Positions 58,557-64,000 of a stretch of DNA of 64,000 nucleotides are shown in pieces. The notes under the pieces were generated by a model that worked only from the letters and a program-made list of their open reading frames with translations, had not been told where the DNA came from and did no database searches. Position 1 is the first letter of the stretch. The number at the start of each line of letters is the position of its first letter. A program made the translations under genes and the position numbers. The stretch comes from Dyella marensis. GTDB taxonomy: Bacteria > Pseudomonadota > Gammaproteobacteria > Xanthomonadales > Rhodanobacteraceae. The DNA lies in contig NZ_FONH01000002.1 in the NCBI RefSeq assembly GCF_900112865.1, positions 354,713-418,712 on the forward strand. Direction: 5' to 3'.

Positions 58557-58585
58557 GAACCGGGATGTCACCCCGGAATTTCAAT

Positions 58586-58602
58586 TGGTGCCAAGGGGAG
58601 AC
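58586..58602. other. possible att remnant (tRNA 3' end fragment)
   Basis: TGGTGCCAAGGGGAGAC read on minus is the last 17 bases of a tRNA-like 3' end: T-stem end, acceptor strand CCTTGGC, discriminator A and CCA. No complete tRNA is present. A terminator sits 30 bases on its 3' side, as after the real tRNAs in this window. Inferred: the scar left by an element that recombined into a tRNA elsewhere, marking the left edge of the right-hand island. Confidence 0.35.
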
Positions 58603-58607
58603 CCAAT

Positions 58608-58739
58608 ATGAAAGTCAACATCTTGATTTTCAAGATAAAAAATGAGCAGCCTTCCAAATTCATGCCCAAATTCATGCCCAAAGGGTGTCGCTTGCATCGG
58701 GACTACCCTAGAACCCATGACCTATCCCCTGCCCCATAG
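58608..58739 (+). CDS. uncertain small ORF over direct repeats
   Basis: 43 codons ending in TAG, with AGGGGAGA upstream of the ATG. It spans the repeat at 58656-58679 and an AT-rich stretch, so it may be attachment-region DNA and not a gene. If TAG were read through, the frame would continue 20 codons to a TGA at 58800. Confidence 0.25.
   Translation: MKVNILIFKIKNEQPSKFMPKFMPKGCRLHRDYPRTHDLSPAP
58656..58679. repeat. tandem 12-base direct repeat
   Basis: AAATTCATGCCC twice without a gap, 54 bases inside the att-like scar. Known: short direct repeats near att sites are often integrase arm-binding sites; that role is inferred. Confidence 0.6.
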
Positions 58740-58816
58740 ATAGCTGATAGGTTCGCCGAGCGCTACCGGTCTCGGTGGTCGGGGCCGGAGTTGCCTCAGT
58801 GAACAGGGAGCGTGCC

Positions 58817-59146
58817 ATGGCAGGTCGATATCTCTTAAGGCGTTCGGGCACTCAGTACGACTTTGTACTGCAAGCAGCCAACTATCAGACCCTCATTACC
58901 AGCGAACGCTATACGACGAAGCAAAGTGCAGAAGCGGGCATCGCTTCTGTACGCGTCAACTCTCCTAACGATGCGCGGTACAACCGACTTACCGCGAAAG
59001 ATGGAAGCCCCTACTTCGTACTGAAGGCCGCCAACGGCGAGCCCATCGGCACCAGTGAGACCTATTCATCCACTGGCGCAAGGGACGGCGGCATCGAGGC
59101 AACCAAAACCGTTGGGCCAACGGCTCCCGTGGTTGACGAAACTTAA
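58817..59146 (+). CDS. YegP-like DUF1508 protein
   Basis: 109 residues from ATG with AGGGAG upstream. Two DUF1508 repeats: YDFVLQAANYQTLITSERYTT and YFVLKAANGEPIGTSETYSS, each ending in a helix with GI. Known: small beta-beta-alpha repeat proteins found widely; function unknown, sometimes linked to stress or phage regions. Terminator just downstream. Confidence 0.85.
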   Translation: MAGRYLLRRSGTQYDFVLQAANYQTLITSERYTTKQSAEAGIASVRVNSPNDARYNRLTAKDGSPYFVLKAANGEPIGTSETYSSTGARDGGIEATKTVGPTAPVVDET

Positions 59147-59168
59147 GGAGCTAATCGGCGTTGCACCG

Positions 59169-59193
59169 AAGGGCGCCATGTGGCGCCCTTTCT
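59169..59193 (+). terminator. terminator after the DUF1508 gene
   Basis: AAGGGCGCCA/TGGCGCCCTT perfect ten-base arms with a two-base loop, then TTTCT on plus. Confidence 0.75.
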
Positions 59194-59270
59194 ACGTCAG
59201 ATAACACTAGTTACACAGCGGCGGAAAGGTCTTGGCGATCAAGCAGCATGACCCACCCAAGCCCACTTCA

Positions 59271-60437
59271 TCACCCGTCGTCCTTCTTTGATTCTTTCTT
59301 AATGGTGGCCACAACAGCCGCCACTATGGTGGATATCTCCTGACTCGGAGAAATTGTCAGCTTATGCCGGTCATAGATCCGCCCAGGTGGGTTGGAGACT
59401 GTGGCTAGCGTGTCCTGGCAAAGTTTTGCCAACGGACTTCCCTCGCCGGCTAACTCTCCCACCTCCTTCATCTGCTGCCGGAAACCTTCAAAGGAAGACG
59501 AAATCGCAGATTTGTAGCCATAGTCCTCCTCCAGTCGCTTGGCGAGCGCAGACTCTCGACCAGAGTGCAGAGTTAGCCAAAGTAGAGCCGCCGCAACAGG
59601 GAATCTGGCTAACCAAAGACGTACCAACTCGTCGTACGAAAGTACCGTCTGCGACGTAAGAGCATGCCAAAGCCCCGTCAACCCTAAAGCAATCAGGGCG
59701 AACAGCGATCCGATGAATACCCACTGCCAACGCCTCTGAGGCATCTTGAATGTTTCGGCCCTTGAATTAAACGCGTGCGCCAGTCCAGCACTCGTTGCGC
59801 CAGGAAGTAATCCAACAATTGTCTTTAACTGCTGATCTGATTCCTCTATGAGCTTCTTCAGGCGCTGCTCATAAGAGAGAATTTCTGCTTCAAGCTTAGA
59901 TGCCTTGTCCGCAAGGGCCTTTGTATCTTTGGATGCCTGCTGAGATGTCTTTAAAGCCTCAGCAATGGCTCCGGAAGAAGCATCCACCGTGGACTTAGCC
60001 GAGGATATTTCCGCAGCCATTCGCACTACATCGTCGGACGCAGACTGACCTCTCGATTTAAGACCATCAATCCCCGAAACATCTGCATTCGCCTTAGCTA
60101 CCGCTTGCGCAAGCTCCCCGCGAAGTCTCTCGGACTCTGCCTGCGCCGCCTGAACTACCTTAAGCTGCCCCTCAACCGTTGTCTGTACAGCATCCACTCG
60201 CGCCGCTGACGAACTCGCCGTACCGCTTAGTAGATTCAAGGCGTCAGCCTTACTATTCATGTCTATCAATACTGCTTCAGCTGCGCGTCGCGCCTCATCA
60301 ATCTTGGTTAGCGCCAGCCCGATTGAATCTTCTACAGAGATTGAATCTTTCAAAACTTGGCTAACTGTCGGCGTTCCCATCTGACTATCGCCCTGGGGCG
60401 GCAAACCAGCCGCCTCCACTCCCTGTTCCTCTGCCAT
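59271..60437 (-). CDS. coiled-coil membrane protein, possible defence or conflict gene
   Basis: 388 residues. A long Ala/Ser/Lys coiled coil (about 40-200, including AVAKANADVSGIDGLKSRG and LADKASKLEAEILSYEQRLK) leads into a conserved-looking C-terminal unit with GLAHAFNSRAETF, two membrane helices (WVFIGSLFALIALGLTGLWH and FPVAAALLWLTLHSG) and a charged domain (EEDYGYKSAISSSFEGFRQQ). No catalytic motif is visible. This type of membrane-coupled coiled coil is frequent in accessory islands; a defence role is only a hypothesis. It is a single gene, convergent with DUF1508. Confidence 0.75.
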   Translation of the reverse strand: MAEEQGVEAAGLPPQGDSQMGTPTVSQVLKDSISVEDSIGLALTKIDEARRAAEAVLIDMNSKADALNLLSGTASSSAARVDAVQTTVEGQLKVVQAAQAESERLRGELAQAVAKANADVSGIDGLKSRGQSASDDVVRMAAEISSAKSTVDASSGAIAEALKTSQQASKDTKALADKASKLEAEILSYEQRLKKLIEESDQQLKTIVGLLPGATSAGLAHAFNSRAETFKMPQRRWQWVFIGSLFALIALGLTGLWHALTSQTVLSYDELVRLWLARFPVAAALLWLTLHSGRESALAKRLEEDYGYKSAISSSFEGFRQQMKEVGELAGEGSPLAKLCQDTLATVSNPPGRIYDRHKLTISPSQEISTIVAAVVATIKKESKKDDG

Positions 60438-60663
60438 ACCCCCTCCCCCATTCGTGAGTGGGCTGACATTAACCGATTTGGGTAATTCAAGACGGGGGCC
60501 AATAAGGCCAAAGGTGCATTGGTTCCACTAGTCAAATAAACCCCGTGTAGGAAACCCCCTATAGTCGGCATCGTCTAATGGGCACTACCCGGCCCAGCTA
60601 GCCAGGGCATAGGATTGGCCCTAACTGGCTGCAACGGCCAGGTCAACCACAGGGGAACAACTC
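60438..60663. other. divergent intergenic region
   Basis: 226 bases between the coiled-coil gene and the exported protein gene. Contains CTATAG and a GTGTAGGAAACCCCCTA stretch resembling half of the 56822 palindrome; no gene. Confidence 0.4.
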
Positions 60664-60918
60664 ATGCGCAAACTCAGCATCTTGCTGGCGGGCTGCTTGT
60701 TGACTCTTTCCTTTGCCGCAGTTGCCAAAGGCGGTGGTCACGGCGGTAGCCATGCCTCGGTCGTCCATGTCAGCGGGCACACGACCAAGACTGGCACCTA
60801 CGTCCCGTCCCATTATCGCACCGGGGCCGACAGCTCCAAGTCAAACAACTGGTCCACCAAGGGCAACGTCAATCCCTATACAGGAAAAGCAGGGACGAAG
60901 AACCCGTATGCGCACTAA
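60664..60918 (+). CDS. small exported Gly/His/Ser-rich protein
   Basis: 84 residues. Signal peptide MRKLSILLAGCLLTLSFAAVA, then KGGGHGGSHASVVHV and a C-terminal WSTKGNVNPYTGKAGTKNP. Known: this NVNPYTGKxGT ending recurs in small exported proteins of proteobacterial prophages and islands, function unknown. AGGGGAAC upstream of the ATG. Overlaps the next gene by 11 bases. Confidence 0.75.
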   Translation: MRKLSILLAGCLLTLSFAAVAKGGGHGGSHASVVHVSGHTTKTGTYVPSHYRTGADSSKSNNWSTKGNVNPYTGKAGTKNPYAH

Positions 60919-61252
60919 GAGCAAACGCATAGGCCTGCATAGCCTTATTGCAGGCTTCCTATTTGTCACCTCTCCTGCGTTCGCAGGCCTTGCTGACGAT
61001 CTTGGCGACTTCGTCGGCTACACGATAATTGCCAGCAAGACTATTGATGGGTGGTATGACCCCGATGGGAAGAAAGGTGATTCCTTCGAGGGATGCGAGT
61101 TTGATAGAACCATCGTCTTCACGGACGGCAAGGTTCTGCATTGCGCAACCTACCGGTATCAATACGGTTACCACCCTAAAGCGGTCATCCTGTCTGACGG
61201 CAGGCAAGTAAAAATGGTTATCGACAACCAGATTTACGACATGCGGCTTTAA
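60908..61252 (+). CDS. exported protein of unknown function
   Basis: 114 residues, ATG inside the end of the previous gene. Signal peptide (IGLHSLIAGFLFVTSPAFA) and a beta-rich mature domain with two cysteines (FEGCEFDRTIVF; VLHCATYRYQYGY). Likely co-expressed with the Gly/His-rich protein. Confidence 0.7.
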   Translation: MRTKSKRIGLHSLIAGFLFVTSPAFAGLADDLGDFVGYTIIASKTIDGWYDPDGKKGDSFEGCEFDRTIVFTDGKVLHCATYRYQYGYHPKAVILSDGRQVKMVIDNQIYDMRL

Positions 61253-61254
61253 AC

Positions 61255-61301
61255 GCAAAAAAGGAGGGGCCAGCCGCACGGCACTGGCGGTTTGGCCCCT
61301 A
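61255..61301 (-). terminator. terminator ending the minus-strand phage genes
   Basis: Arms GGGGCCA/TTGGCCCC with an inner CCGC/GCGG pair; on minus followed by CCTTTTTT. Also lies between convergent units, so it may act in both directions. Confidence 0.65.
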
Positions 61302-61428
61302 AGTTTTCGCTTGAGGTAAAACATGAGTCCGGCAGCGTAGCCACCGGGTCGAGCGGCGAGGCGTCACTTTGCTGCCCGGATCGCAAAGTGAGACAAAGTG
61401 CCACTGAATTTCCCAGGCATGGCGAGGC

Positions 61429-63570
61429 TTACGGATTTCTAGTCGTGGCAATAGCCGGCAATCCATAGACATAGTGGCCCAACAAGCCCTGCTGCTACGT
61501 CGCTCTCTGGCGAGCAAAGTAGGCATCTATCGCATCAGCCGCCGCAGTGGAGTTGGCCATCTTCTAGCCAACCCTATTGGCAATGCGGCTGTTGATCGCT
61601 CCGATGGTGTCCGAAACGCCAAGGCCGGCTGCGGTACCCAGGGCAGTCCCGACAGGACCGAACGAGGATCCGAGAATCCCGCCCGCGGCGGCACCAATGG
61701 CGCGACCTAGGAAGCCGCCCTTCACCCCGAGGCTAGGCCCATAGATAGCCTTTGAGAGCAACCCGGTAGCCTATAAATCGGCCGCCGTGCTCGGACCCGA
61801 TGCGGCTACCTTGGCATCCGAGATAGAGCGTCGCATAAGGCTATCGCGTAGGTTCTCCATCTACGTGCGAGCAGCCTGTGCCATTGGGTACTAGGCGTCG
61901 TCGTCCTGACGAAGCAATTGCTTCACCCTCGCCAGCGCAAGCTACGGATCACCAGAAGCGTTAAGGCTACCTGGAGCATTAGGGTCAAGAAGCCCACCAA
62001 CTGCTTCCATCGTATTGATGGGCTCGGACGCCCTTGCATACGTGGCCAAGTAATCACGATAGCCCGGTGCGACGCGTTCGATAGCGTTGACAATCGAATC
62101 CCTAGCAGGCCCATAACCGAGCGCACCCTAGCCGTTGGTGTTGGCGAGCATCTTGGACGCCTCTTGCCTCACGGCGTCCAGCATGTCCGTTCCAACCTTA
62201 CCACGGATATTTGCAGCCCCATTGATGGAGTCAATGAGTTCACCGAACCGGGCACCATTGTTTCCAAGAACGCCTAGCGGACCATTCTTGAGTGTATGCA
62301 GGACATCCAGAACAGGCTTGGGGTTAACCATGTTGTTGTCGATCGCTTGACGTGCCTGAGCAAATGCATCTTGCGTCTTCTTGCTAAACACGCCGTCTTC
62401 GAGATCCTTGAGCGCAGCCCAAGCATCATCCTCCTGCATGGCACCGCTCTTCACCTGGTCAACGACACTCCTGGCCGATTTGAGCGAGTCAAAGTCATTG
62501 GCTGACATGCGCCCCGGCTTGTTCAATATCGAGTCGAATGCATCCTATGCTCCGGCCCACCGAACAATGGGGCGTGAGTCCGTCAAGTACTGCTGCACGA
62601 ACGGATCAACTGCGGTACGGCGATTTGCTTTGGCAGCCTGCATGTCAGCATCCGTGCCGGCAAGCTGCTGCACCAGCGACAAGCGTGCATTATTGTTCGC
62701 TGCATCCTGGGCAGCAAAGGACGGAGCTGTCGCGGGGTTGTTGCGCAGCGCACGTTCTACCTACACCGCCTCCGGCGTTTGCAACACCTGAGCAACCGAA
62801 GGGCTTTCTCCCGGCACGAGCTGAGGCGCGCTACGCAGGAGCCCGGCCACCACCGGATTGTTACCAGTCATACGCGCCACATTGGCGTTAGCAATGGCGC
62901 TGGGATTTGTGATGTGTTGAACGGCATTCTTGACACCACCTCCCAGTAGGCCGCCAGTATCTAGGCCAACCTTCATCAGCGGCCCCGTGGCCGCGCCAAA
63001 CCCAATCTGCAAGGCCTTCTGGTCAGCGTAGGAGGGCGTAGGAGCCTTACCCTCCACCAAATCCTGCAGGTTGTTCTGCGGGCCGCTGGTGACGGGCTGG
63101 GAGGCGCCAATCAAGGCCCCCTCCGTTGCCAGAGTGCCGAGCTTGCCTAGGTACGTGGTTGCCTTGGGCAGCACACCGAGCGCGCGAAGCTCGCCAATTC
63201 CAGTCAGCCAGGGAAGCGTCTCGCCTACACCGGCGCCAATATACGAACCTGCCGTATCTGGCGTGGCTTGCTGGTAGGCCTGCTCGCGTCGCTGGATATA
63301 GCTGTCGAGGTCGCGCGTCATTCCCTTCAGGCCACCACCAATCGGACTGGCGGCATTGAGGTGCATGACGCCCTAGGCAATGCCAAGAGGGAGATTGCCA
63401 AGATGATGAAGCGCGGCATCCCCCATATTGTTGCCGAAGTCGTTGACTCTTTGGTAAAGCGAGCGCTCGGGCGGCGCCAGCTCGGAAGAAACAACAGCGC
63501 TCGTTCCGGGCTGACTCTAAAGATCGGACAGCTTCTGAGTCTGGCCGTTGAGTTCAGATAACTTGGGCAT
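61429..63570 (-). CDS. phage late/structural gene with eleven in-frame TAG codons (probable stop-codon recoding)
   Basis: One frame of 714 codons from ATG at 63570 (AGGAGGT six bases upstream; ATG shares a base with the previous TGA) to TAA at 61429-61431. It is interrupted by TAG at 63517, 63373, 62761, 62545, 62128, 61942, 61891, 61861, 61771, 61564 and 61495 (lower coordinates), and by no TAA, TGA or frameshift. Between ambers the sequence is continuous phage-protein-like: Ala/Gly-rich helices, a membrane-like segment (IGAAAGGILGSSFGPVGTAL) and Gln/Asn-rich linkers, resembling large virion-associated or ejection proteins. Contexts such as DP-amber-LALARVKQLL and ART-amber-MENLRDS suit glutamine. 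If ambers are read, 713 residues. Confidence 0.82.
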
Positions 63571-64000
63571 CACTGCACCTCCTGCATTTCGGGATCGGTC
63601 GGATCAGACAAGCCAATCACCCTCCATTTCTTGCCATTGACAGTGAGTACCTGTCCAATCATGTAGCGCTTGGCTTTGACATCGCTCCTTTGCATCTGAG
63701 CACTACCCTGCTGTGCCTTGCCTTGATCCTTTCCTGTTCCATAGAGAGCATTGCCGGCAAGCGACTTGATATCGTCCAGCACTTTCTGTTGATCAGTGGA
63801 AAGGATGTTAAGCCGAGAAGCTGCCATTGGACCAAGAGCGGTTACGGCTTGATCATTGATCGCCGTAAGGCGCCCCTGAACAAGATCCGCAAGGGTGCCC
63901 AAGGATCCTTGGAGCTTTTCGATCGGCTGCGACGGATCAAGCATCTGAGCGACATGCTCGCGGTCGGCCAGTGCGGATCCCGTCCCCGCAAACAGCTTTG
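63570..64000 (-). CDS. phage late gene, C-terminal part (runs off the window)
   Basis: 143 codons visible, open to the window edge on the 5' side and ending in TGA. Helical N-terminal part (EKLQGSLGTLADLVQGRL, LSTDQQKVLDDIKSLAG) and a C-terminal SH3-like piece (KRYMIGQVLTVNGKKWRVIG), seen in small phage structural or adaptor proteins. No TAG occurs in this part. Coupled to the amber-rich gene by TGATG. Confidence 0.7.
   Translation of the reverse strand, partial: KLFAGTGSALADREHVAQMLDPSQPIEKLQGSLGTLADLVQGRLTAINDQAVTALGPMAASRLNILSTDQQKVLDDIKSLAGNALYGTGKDQGKAQQGSAQMQRSDVKAKRYMIGQVLTVNGKKWRVIGLSDPTDPEMQEVQ

Follow-up and report, generated by a model that had tools for sequence, protein, structure and literature searches.

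How can a phage-type gene be read when eleven stop codons, all of them amber, interrupt its frame? The gene in question, P1, lies near the end of the window, by which we mean the whole stretch of 64,000 nucleotides of Dyella marensis DNA analysed here (C27:354713-418712 of genome G000, a 5.0-Mb draft in 44 contigs, 99.8% complete). The DNA directly past the window end (C27:418713-438712) is referred to as L003, and the features of both are collected in table 1. A preliminary description of the window had proposed a single minus-strand frame of 714 codons holding eleven TAG and no frameshift. Our reading agrees: 713 codons are followed by TAA, with TAG at codons 18, 66, 270, 342, 481, 543, 560, 570, 600, 669, and 692, and neither an internal TAA or TGA nor a frameshift was found. 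The ATG of P1 overlaps the TGA stop of the upstream gene P2, so that the two genes end in TAA and TGA, as previously stated. Of the P2 reading frame, the part inside the window is free of TAG, all seven lying beyond it. A tblastn search of P1 against GenBank phages gave no match, and P2 retrieved SLT-domain matches only.

Table 1. Position of the features of the D. marensis element, and of unusual suppressor tRNAs in related phages.
Feature	Position	Strand	Remarks
Element part inside the window	window 58575-64000		
Left attachment repeat	window 58575-58592	+	GGAATTTCAATTGGTGCC; copy of tRNA-Leu 3' end, 17/18 exact, then imperfect
388-aa ORF	window 59271-60437	-	coiled-coil, possibly membrane-anchored; standard code; no Pfam match
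P1	window 61429-63570	-	predicted late ejection-module gene; 713 aa, 11 in-frame TAG, TAA end
P2	window 63570-64000 (3' part), start L003:1600 (C27:420312)	-	SLT-transglycosylase gene; 676 codons, 7 TAG, TGA end
P0005	L003:1700-2089	-	129 codons, 2 TAG
P0004	L003:2104-2538	-	144 codons, 4 TAG
P3	L003:2547-3638	-	DNA-ejection gene (phrog_4287); 363 codons, 6 TAG
Leader upstream of P3	L003:3697-3788	-	
SAT293	L003:3981-4862	-	
Early block	L003:4866-7401	-	RepA-type helicase, primase fragment, AlpA
C4 and isrK-type RNAs	L003:9286-9470	-	
Early ORF	L003:9526-10860		TAG end
Large serine recombinase	L003:11398-13104	+	extra to tyrosine integrase
Large serine recombinase	L003:13644-14858	-	extra to tyrosine integrase
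Tyrosine integrase	L003:17598-18899	-	TAG end
tRNA-Leu(GAG)	L003:19065-19149 (C27:437777-437861)	-	attachment site
Suppressor tRNA	L092:41-130	+	class II-shaped, long variable arm
Suppressor tRNA	G239:C1:13694-13782	+	class II-shaped, long variable arm
Suppressor tRNA	G233:C1:15741-15826	-	class II-shaped, long variable arm
tRNA(CUA)	G086:C5:412270-412340	+	71 nt, reduced D-arm region
tRNA(CUA)	G118:C2:239816-239886	-	71 nt, reduced D-arm region

P1 closes a five-gene operon (P3, P0004, P0005, P2, P1), all on the minus strand, whose roughly 2,024 codons include 30 TAG and not a single TAA or TGA. The type of the stops had been put forward as an argument against ordinary decay, and it holds for the whole operon: under transition decay from the CAG, CAA, CGA, and TGG codons present, the chance that all 30 would be TAG is about 1e-4, a figure that rests on stop type only. 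The missing frameshifts and the comparison with homologues are far stronger arguments for recoding. In the early region of the element, seven genes (2,323 codons) are devoid of internal stops, and some of them terminate in TAG.

The meaning of TAG was read from relatives collected in the same host family, in genome contigs, and in IMG/VR. The standard-code comparison set (L087, L089, the fragment L088, and the G158 locus) provides homologous genes without any TAG. In these homologues, Gln is found at 41% of the columns facing an amber of the D. marensis genes (22 usable sites), against 40% at its CAG/CAA codons and 6% at non-Gln columns, and none of 100,000 random draws reached the amber-column value. 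When all related islands (hereafter satellites) are pooled, Gln occupies 42% of 53 amber sites, and no other residue comes close. With Gln equally frequent at amber columns and at true Gln codons, the alignments make it near certain that TAG stands for Gln (code 15) in these genes. The preliminary description had claimed precisely this and had suggested aligning the protein, with TAG read as Gln, to phage homologues; the amber columns do match Gln. It had also taken P1 for a late phage gene of the Xanthomonadales, and its homologues are indeed late virion genes, in phages of the Xanthomonadales/Lysobacterales (Rhodanobacteraceae: Dyella, Luteibacter).

In 16 related phages and prophages, TAG occurs in almost every late gene examined (TerL, portal, MCP, P1, P2, P3); these 16 are 14 IMG/VR contigs and two complete-looking prophages with terminase, portal, and capsid genes, in Dyella sp. 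SG609 (G086) and Luteibacter sp. Sphag1AF (G118). The carriers are temperate short-tailed phages of about 40 kb. Directly upstream of the terminase genes, 14 of the 16 possess a tRNA(CUA); the other two are fragments of 22.9 and 9.3 kb. Most of these tRNAs have U1 opposite C72, G2-C71, G3-C70, and G73, and we take U1, G2-C71, G3-C70, and G73 to be identity elements of tRNA-Gln. In L092 and its relatives the tRNA(CUA) has a long variable arm and C1. Another amino acid was considered for such long-armed suppressors and ruled out, the amber columns of those phages still being Gln. The 71-nt tRNAs of the two complete-looking prophages are missed by ARAGORN at default and, in a scan of the loci, fall below the Rfam gathering threshold; recoded phages listed as devoid of a suppressor tRNA may possess one of this kind. 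Three standard-code sister phages (L087, L089, L088) have neither TAG in these genes nor a tRNA(CUA). In this phage lineage, tRNA(CUA) and TAGs come and go together. The earlier suggestion that recoded temperate phages can sit in standard-code hosts is borne out by sister strains, where full recoded prophages are accompanied by a Gln-type tRNA(CUA). Two short IMG/VR contigs (L083 and L084, 18.5-19.2 kb) were considered as satellites and rejected, since terminase, portal, and capsid genes identify them as phage fragments.

The preliminary description had advised a search beyond the window for a suppressor tRNA with a CTA anticodon. None is present in the window and the next 60 kb, nor did a structure scan with relaxed settings give a tRNA(CUA) in the element. 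The genome has 49 tRNAs according to Rfam, all with ordinary anticodons in ARAGORN, including tRNA-Gln genes with CUG and UUG; three patterns found no tRNA(CUA) in it, and the last of these patterns does recover the phage tRNAs. A pattern match (TCTAA) on contig C28 proved to be tRNA-Arg(TCT). In most satellite host genomes searched whole, a set that leaves out G087, there was no match to a phage-type tRNA(CUA), whereas the same search returned one tRNA(CUA) in each of two hosts of recoded prophages. These absences depend on what ARAGORN, Rfam, and patterns detect in draft assemblies, and divergent phage tRNAs can escape default ARAGORN; ARAGORN at a 60% threshold produced thousands of spurious matches, which were discarded. 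The preliminary description had named, as evidence against recoding, a genome without suppressor tRNA combined with TAA, TGA, or frameshift lesions in neighboring phage genes. The former is what we find, but of the latter there is no instance.

Where, then, do the ambers reside? The preliminary description had placed them in the late region of a recoded prophage, which the architecture of the locus contradicts. The element spans about 24.5 kb (C27:413287 to ~437783), between tRNA-Leu(GAG) and an imperfect copy of its 3' end, and contains no terminase, portal, or major capsid gene. A DNA-ejection cassette, as predicted from the sequences, is its only set of virion genes. In addition to the early block, whose AlpA matches PF05930 and whose primase fragment is of the zinc-primase type, the element carries an int-alpA RNA and a C4 RNA. 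The latter matches RF01695 in G000 and G087 and is below threshold in the other islands scanned. The names of the P4 size-control and activation genes (Sid, Psu, Delta) do not appear in the results of Pfam/PHROG scans of ten G000 proteins. The 388-aa ORF is likely cargo inside the element, and the DNA flanking it is also present in the Dyella G087 island. Relatives of the two serine recombinases take differing positions in other islands. No clean empty integration site was found with the left flank as query.

The element is one of eight islands sharing AlpA, SAT293, the leader, and P3, in G000, G087, Dyella sp. AtDHG13 (G050), Luteibacter sp. UNC138MFCol5.1, L. jiangsuensis CC60, CGMCC 1.10133, G104, and G106. 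TerL, portal, and MCP genes are lacking in the stretches read. Islands with a located edge mostly, not always, adjoin a tRNA gene, which is Leu-GAG in G000, CC60, and AtDHG13, and Leu-CAA in UNC138, G104, and G087; the CGMCC 1.10133 island is near Leu-TAA. The UNC138 and G104 islands share a repeat core of 13-14 bp and measure about 20 and 18 kb, respectively. SAT293 was detected in 11 of 233 genomes of the family and in no viral contig. The DNA that satellites have in common with phages is nearly confined to P3-P2-P1; elsewhere it amounts to a few patches of 100-270 bp. We saw no genome that contains both a satellite and a recoded helper, and no packaging site common to the two was found.

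Approximately 95 nt directly 5' of P3 are common to all eight islands, and comprise GGGACGGAAA..CACC, an AT-rich stretch, and an invariant hairpin, GCCGTGCCGGGNNANGCACGGC. Some of the changes in the outer stems are compensatory. A covariance model of this leader gives a single match per island in all eight and none in phages, and there is no matching Rfam family. In several islands T-rich sequence follows the hairpin, and therefore an attenuator is possible; a promoter or a packaging signal are other candidate roles. The model also detects one degenerate leader in G050, in a second island-like locus (L128, G050:C6:143564-145118) that adjoins tRNA-Asn and includes a SAT293 gene but no P3.

P3 runs intact from MGG to YYL-stop in all eight islands, apart from 3-9 TAG each, and is free of TAA, TGA, and frameshifts throughout. 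P3 is the constant part of the cassette, for its partners P2 and P1 have decayed or disappeared in several islands (G104, G106, G107, G050, and G087). Amber positions differ between satellites, a TAG in one facing CAG in another. Pairs of P3, P2, or P1 gave dN/dS values of 0.08-0.32 where computable, mostly with dS above 1; for P3 of G000 and the nearest phage, L083 (84% nucleotide identity), dN/dS is 0.30 at a dS of 0.56. P3 is under purifying selection. In the P3 tree, satellite sequences occur at no fewer than four places among recoded phages: G000 beside L083/L084/L086/SG609, AtDHG13 with L090, G087 with L092/L093, and the Luteibacter islands near Luteibacter-type phages. Such scattered alleles, in combination with a satellite-specific leader, fit a history in which alleles of local phages have repeatedly taken the place of the ejection gene. 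The idea that satellite P1 and P2 form a lineage apart from phages was rejected, as satellite P1 and P3 interleave with phage sequences; the tabulated tree groups compare satellites with standard phages only, and a single-change line there is no proof of a satellite clade.

The ambers are unevenly placed within the genes. Satellite P3 has its first TAG between codons 6 and 33 (p 0.00025 in comparison with Gln codons drawn at random), at several different early codons, and the five genes of G000 have theirs at codons 17, 9, 27, 12, and 18. In TerL, portal, MCP, P2, and P3 the first TAG is much nearer the start than expected from a random distribution over Gln codons, although the p-values are inflated by shared ancestry. 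In portal it comes at 5% of gene length, against 35% expected, and the MCP of recoded phages (L083-L101, G086, G118) usually has exactly one TAG, at codon 16. P1 shows no early-amber bias. The 5' crowding in terminase, portal, capsid, and ejection genes favors a timing lock over drift.

We put forward that these islands are probably a P4-like satellite family whose virion genes are kept in the code of a helper and are translated only if the tRNA comes from a recoded helper, and a dependence of the satellite on such a helper appears equally probable. The element, integrated at tRNA-Leu(GAG), has early genes in the standard code and a late cassette (P3, two small genes, P2, and P1) in that of the presumed helpers, the temperate short-tailed TAG-Gln phages. 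In the lysogen, an amber within the first 27 codons of each gene would keep the cassette closed. An active recoded phage would open the ambers with its tRNA(CUA), the satellite would make its own ejection proteins, and these would enter the helper virion. Because the decoding tRNA is found only in related phages, the cassette is probably readable only with such a phage active in the cell. The same tRNA would extend the C-termini of early island genes that end in TAG. We lean, if only slightly, towards a dependence at the level of the genetic code itself, in which the early ambers act as locks that the helper tRNA opens and the helper is sensed by translation, with no sensor protein. Mobilisation by these phages, incorporation in virions, and timing and gating in vivo are what we infer from this arrangement.

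Foremost among the rival readings is a defective remnant, in which deletions would have removed the head genes and the suppressor tRNA of a recoded prophage, leaving the ambers frozen and the cassette dead. The genes from terminase to tail and the tRNA are indeed missing, P2 and P1 are decayed or gone in the islands named above, and phages such as L083 have a P3 close to that of G000. Yet eight islands, all of them devoid of head genes, agree in the marker gene SAT293, AlpA, the leader, and the order of genes; the leader 5' of P3 is conserved across satellites and absent from phages; and P3 is unbroken in all eight, with the low dN/dS given above. We therefore consider a remnant unlikely as a general explanation, though single islands may be dead.

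Less probable by far is an expression independent of any helper, the host tRNA-Gln (CUG) reading UAG by near-cognate wobble when RF1 is limiting. The host does have tRNA-Gln genes for CUG and UUG, but at usual readthrough rates up to 11 ambers in one gene would cut the yield strongly, and the tRNA accompanies 14 recoded phages (two fragments being without) and none of three standard ones. A recognised Sup-CTA tRNA was reported in 375 of 715 predicted code-15 phages, about half thus lacking one (PMC11210395), which speaks for wobble; even so, we hold it to be very unlikely. Slightly less credible still is a suppressor tRNA that the strain has and we missed, in an assembly gap, on a plasmid, or by strong divergence. 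The assembly is a draft of 44 contigs and the 71-nt tRNAs of two sister prophages do elude ARAGORN at default; against this, the 49 Rfam tRNAs have ordinary anticodons, and scans able to detect the phage tRNAs gave no such tRNA in G000 or the other satellite genomes tested. Finally, eleven stops in one gene might suggest an ordinary pseudogene with chance ambers. To this we give almost no credence: the stops are 30 TAG against no TAA or TGA in unshifted frames, amber columns hold Gln, selection is purifying, and 16 phages and eight islands repeat the pattern.

Among known systems, capsid-encoding satellites (cf-PICI) take most of the virion from the helper, as the present island would. To our knowledge, no capsid-encoding or minimal satellite with genes that need the genetic code of its helper has been described. 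Work by Borges et al. in 2022 reportedly dealt with recoding and lytic genes. In the open-licence literature we found no relevant paper that connects phage satellites to suppressor tRNAs, to ejection proteins, or to genetic codes. PICMI likewise obtain most of the virion from a helper (PMC10803314). Code-15 phages and suppressor tRNAs are already known (PMC9523058, PMC10879173, PMC11210395). The crAss-like and Lak code-15 phages (PMC9523058, PMC7886860, PMC8346664) resemble the present case in reading TAG as Gln, in the phage tRNA(CUA), in TAG within late genes, and in standard-code hosts; the carriers here, in contrast, are phages of about 40 kb, temperate and short-tailed, of Dyella/Luteibacter soil bacteria, and the D. 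marensis element has TAG genes without any suppressor tRNA. With the P4-like satellites of P2-like phages, it has in common integration at a tRNA, a tyrosine integrase, AlpA, a C4 antisense RNA, its own replication genes, and the lack of head genes. It differs in ejection/virion genes of short-tailed-phage type, which are recoded, and in that no Sid/Psu or P2-type helper was identified.

Standard annotation would split such genes or call them pseudogenes, and hence satellites of this kind have probably been overlooked. Furthermore, since the hosts are culturable soil bacteria, some with a complete recoded prophage, the question of why phages recode, whether as a timing lock or by drift, becomes directly testable. 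The stop-codon recoding described so far concerns phages equipped with a tRNA of their own, whereas here genes in an altered code are found on an element without it, in standard-code hosts. Thus, the genetic code might serve as a signal of dependence between two mobile elements.
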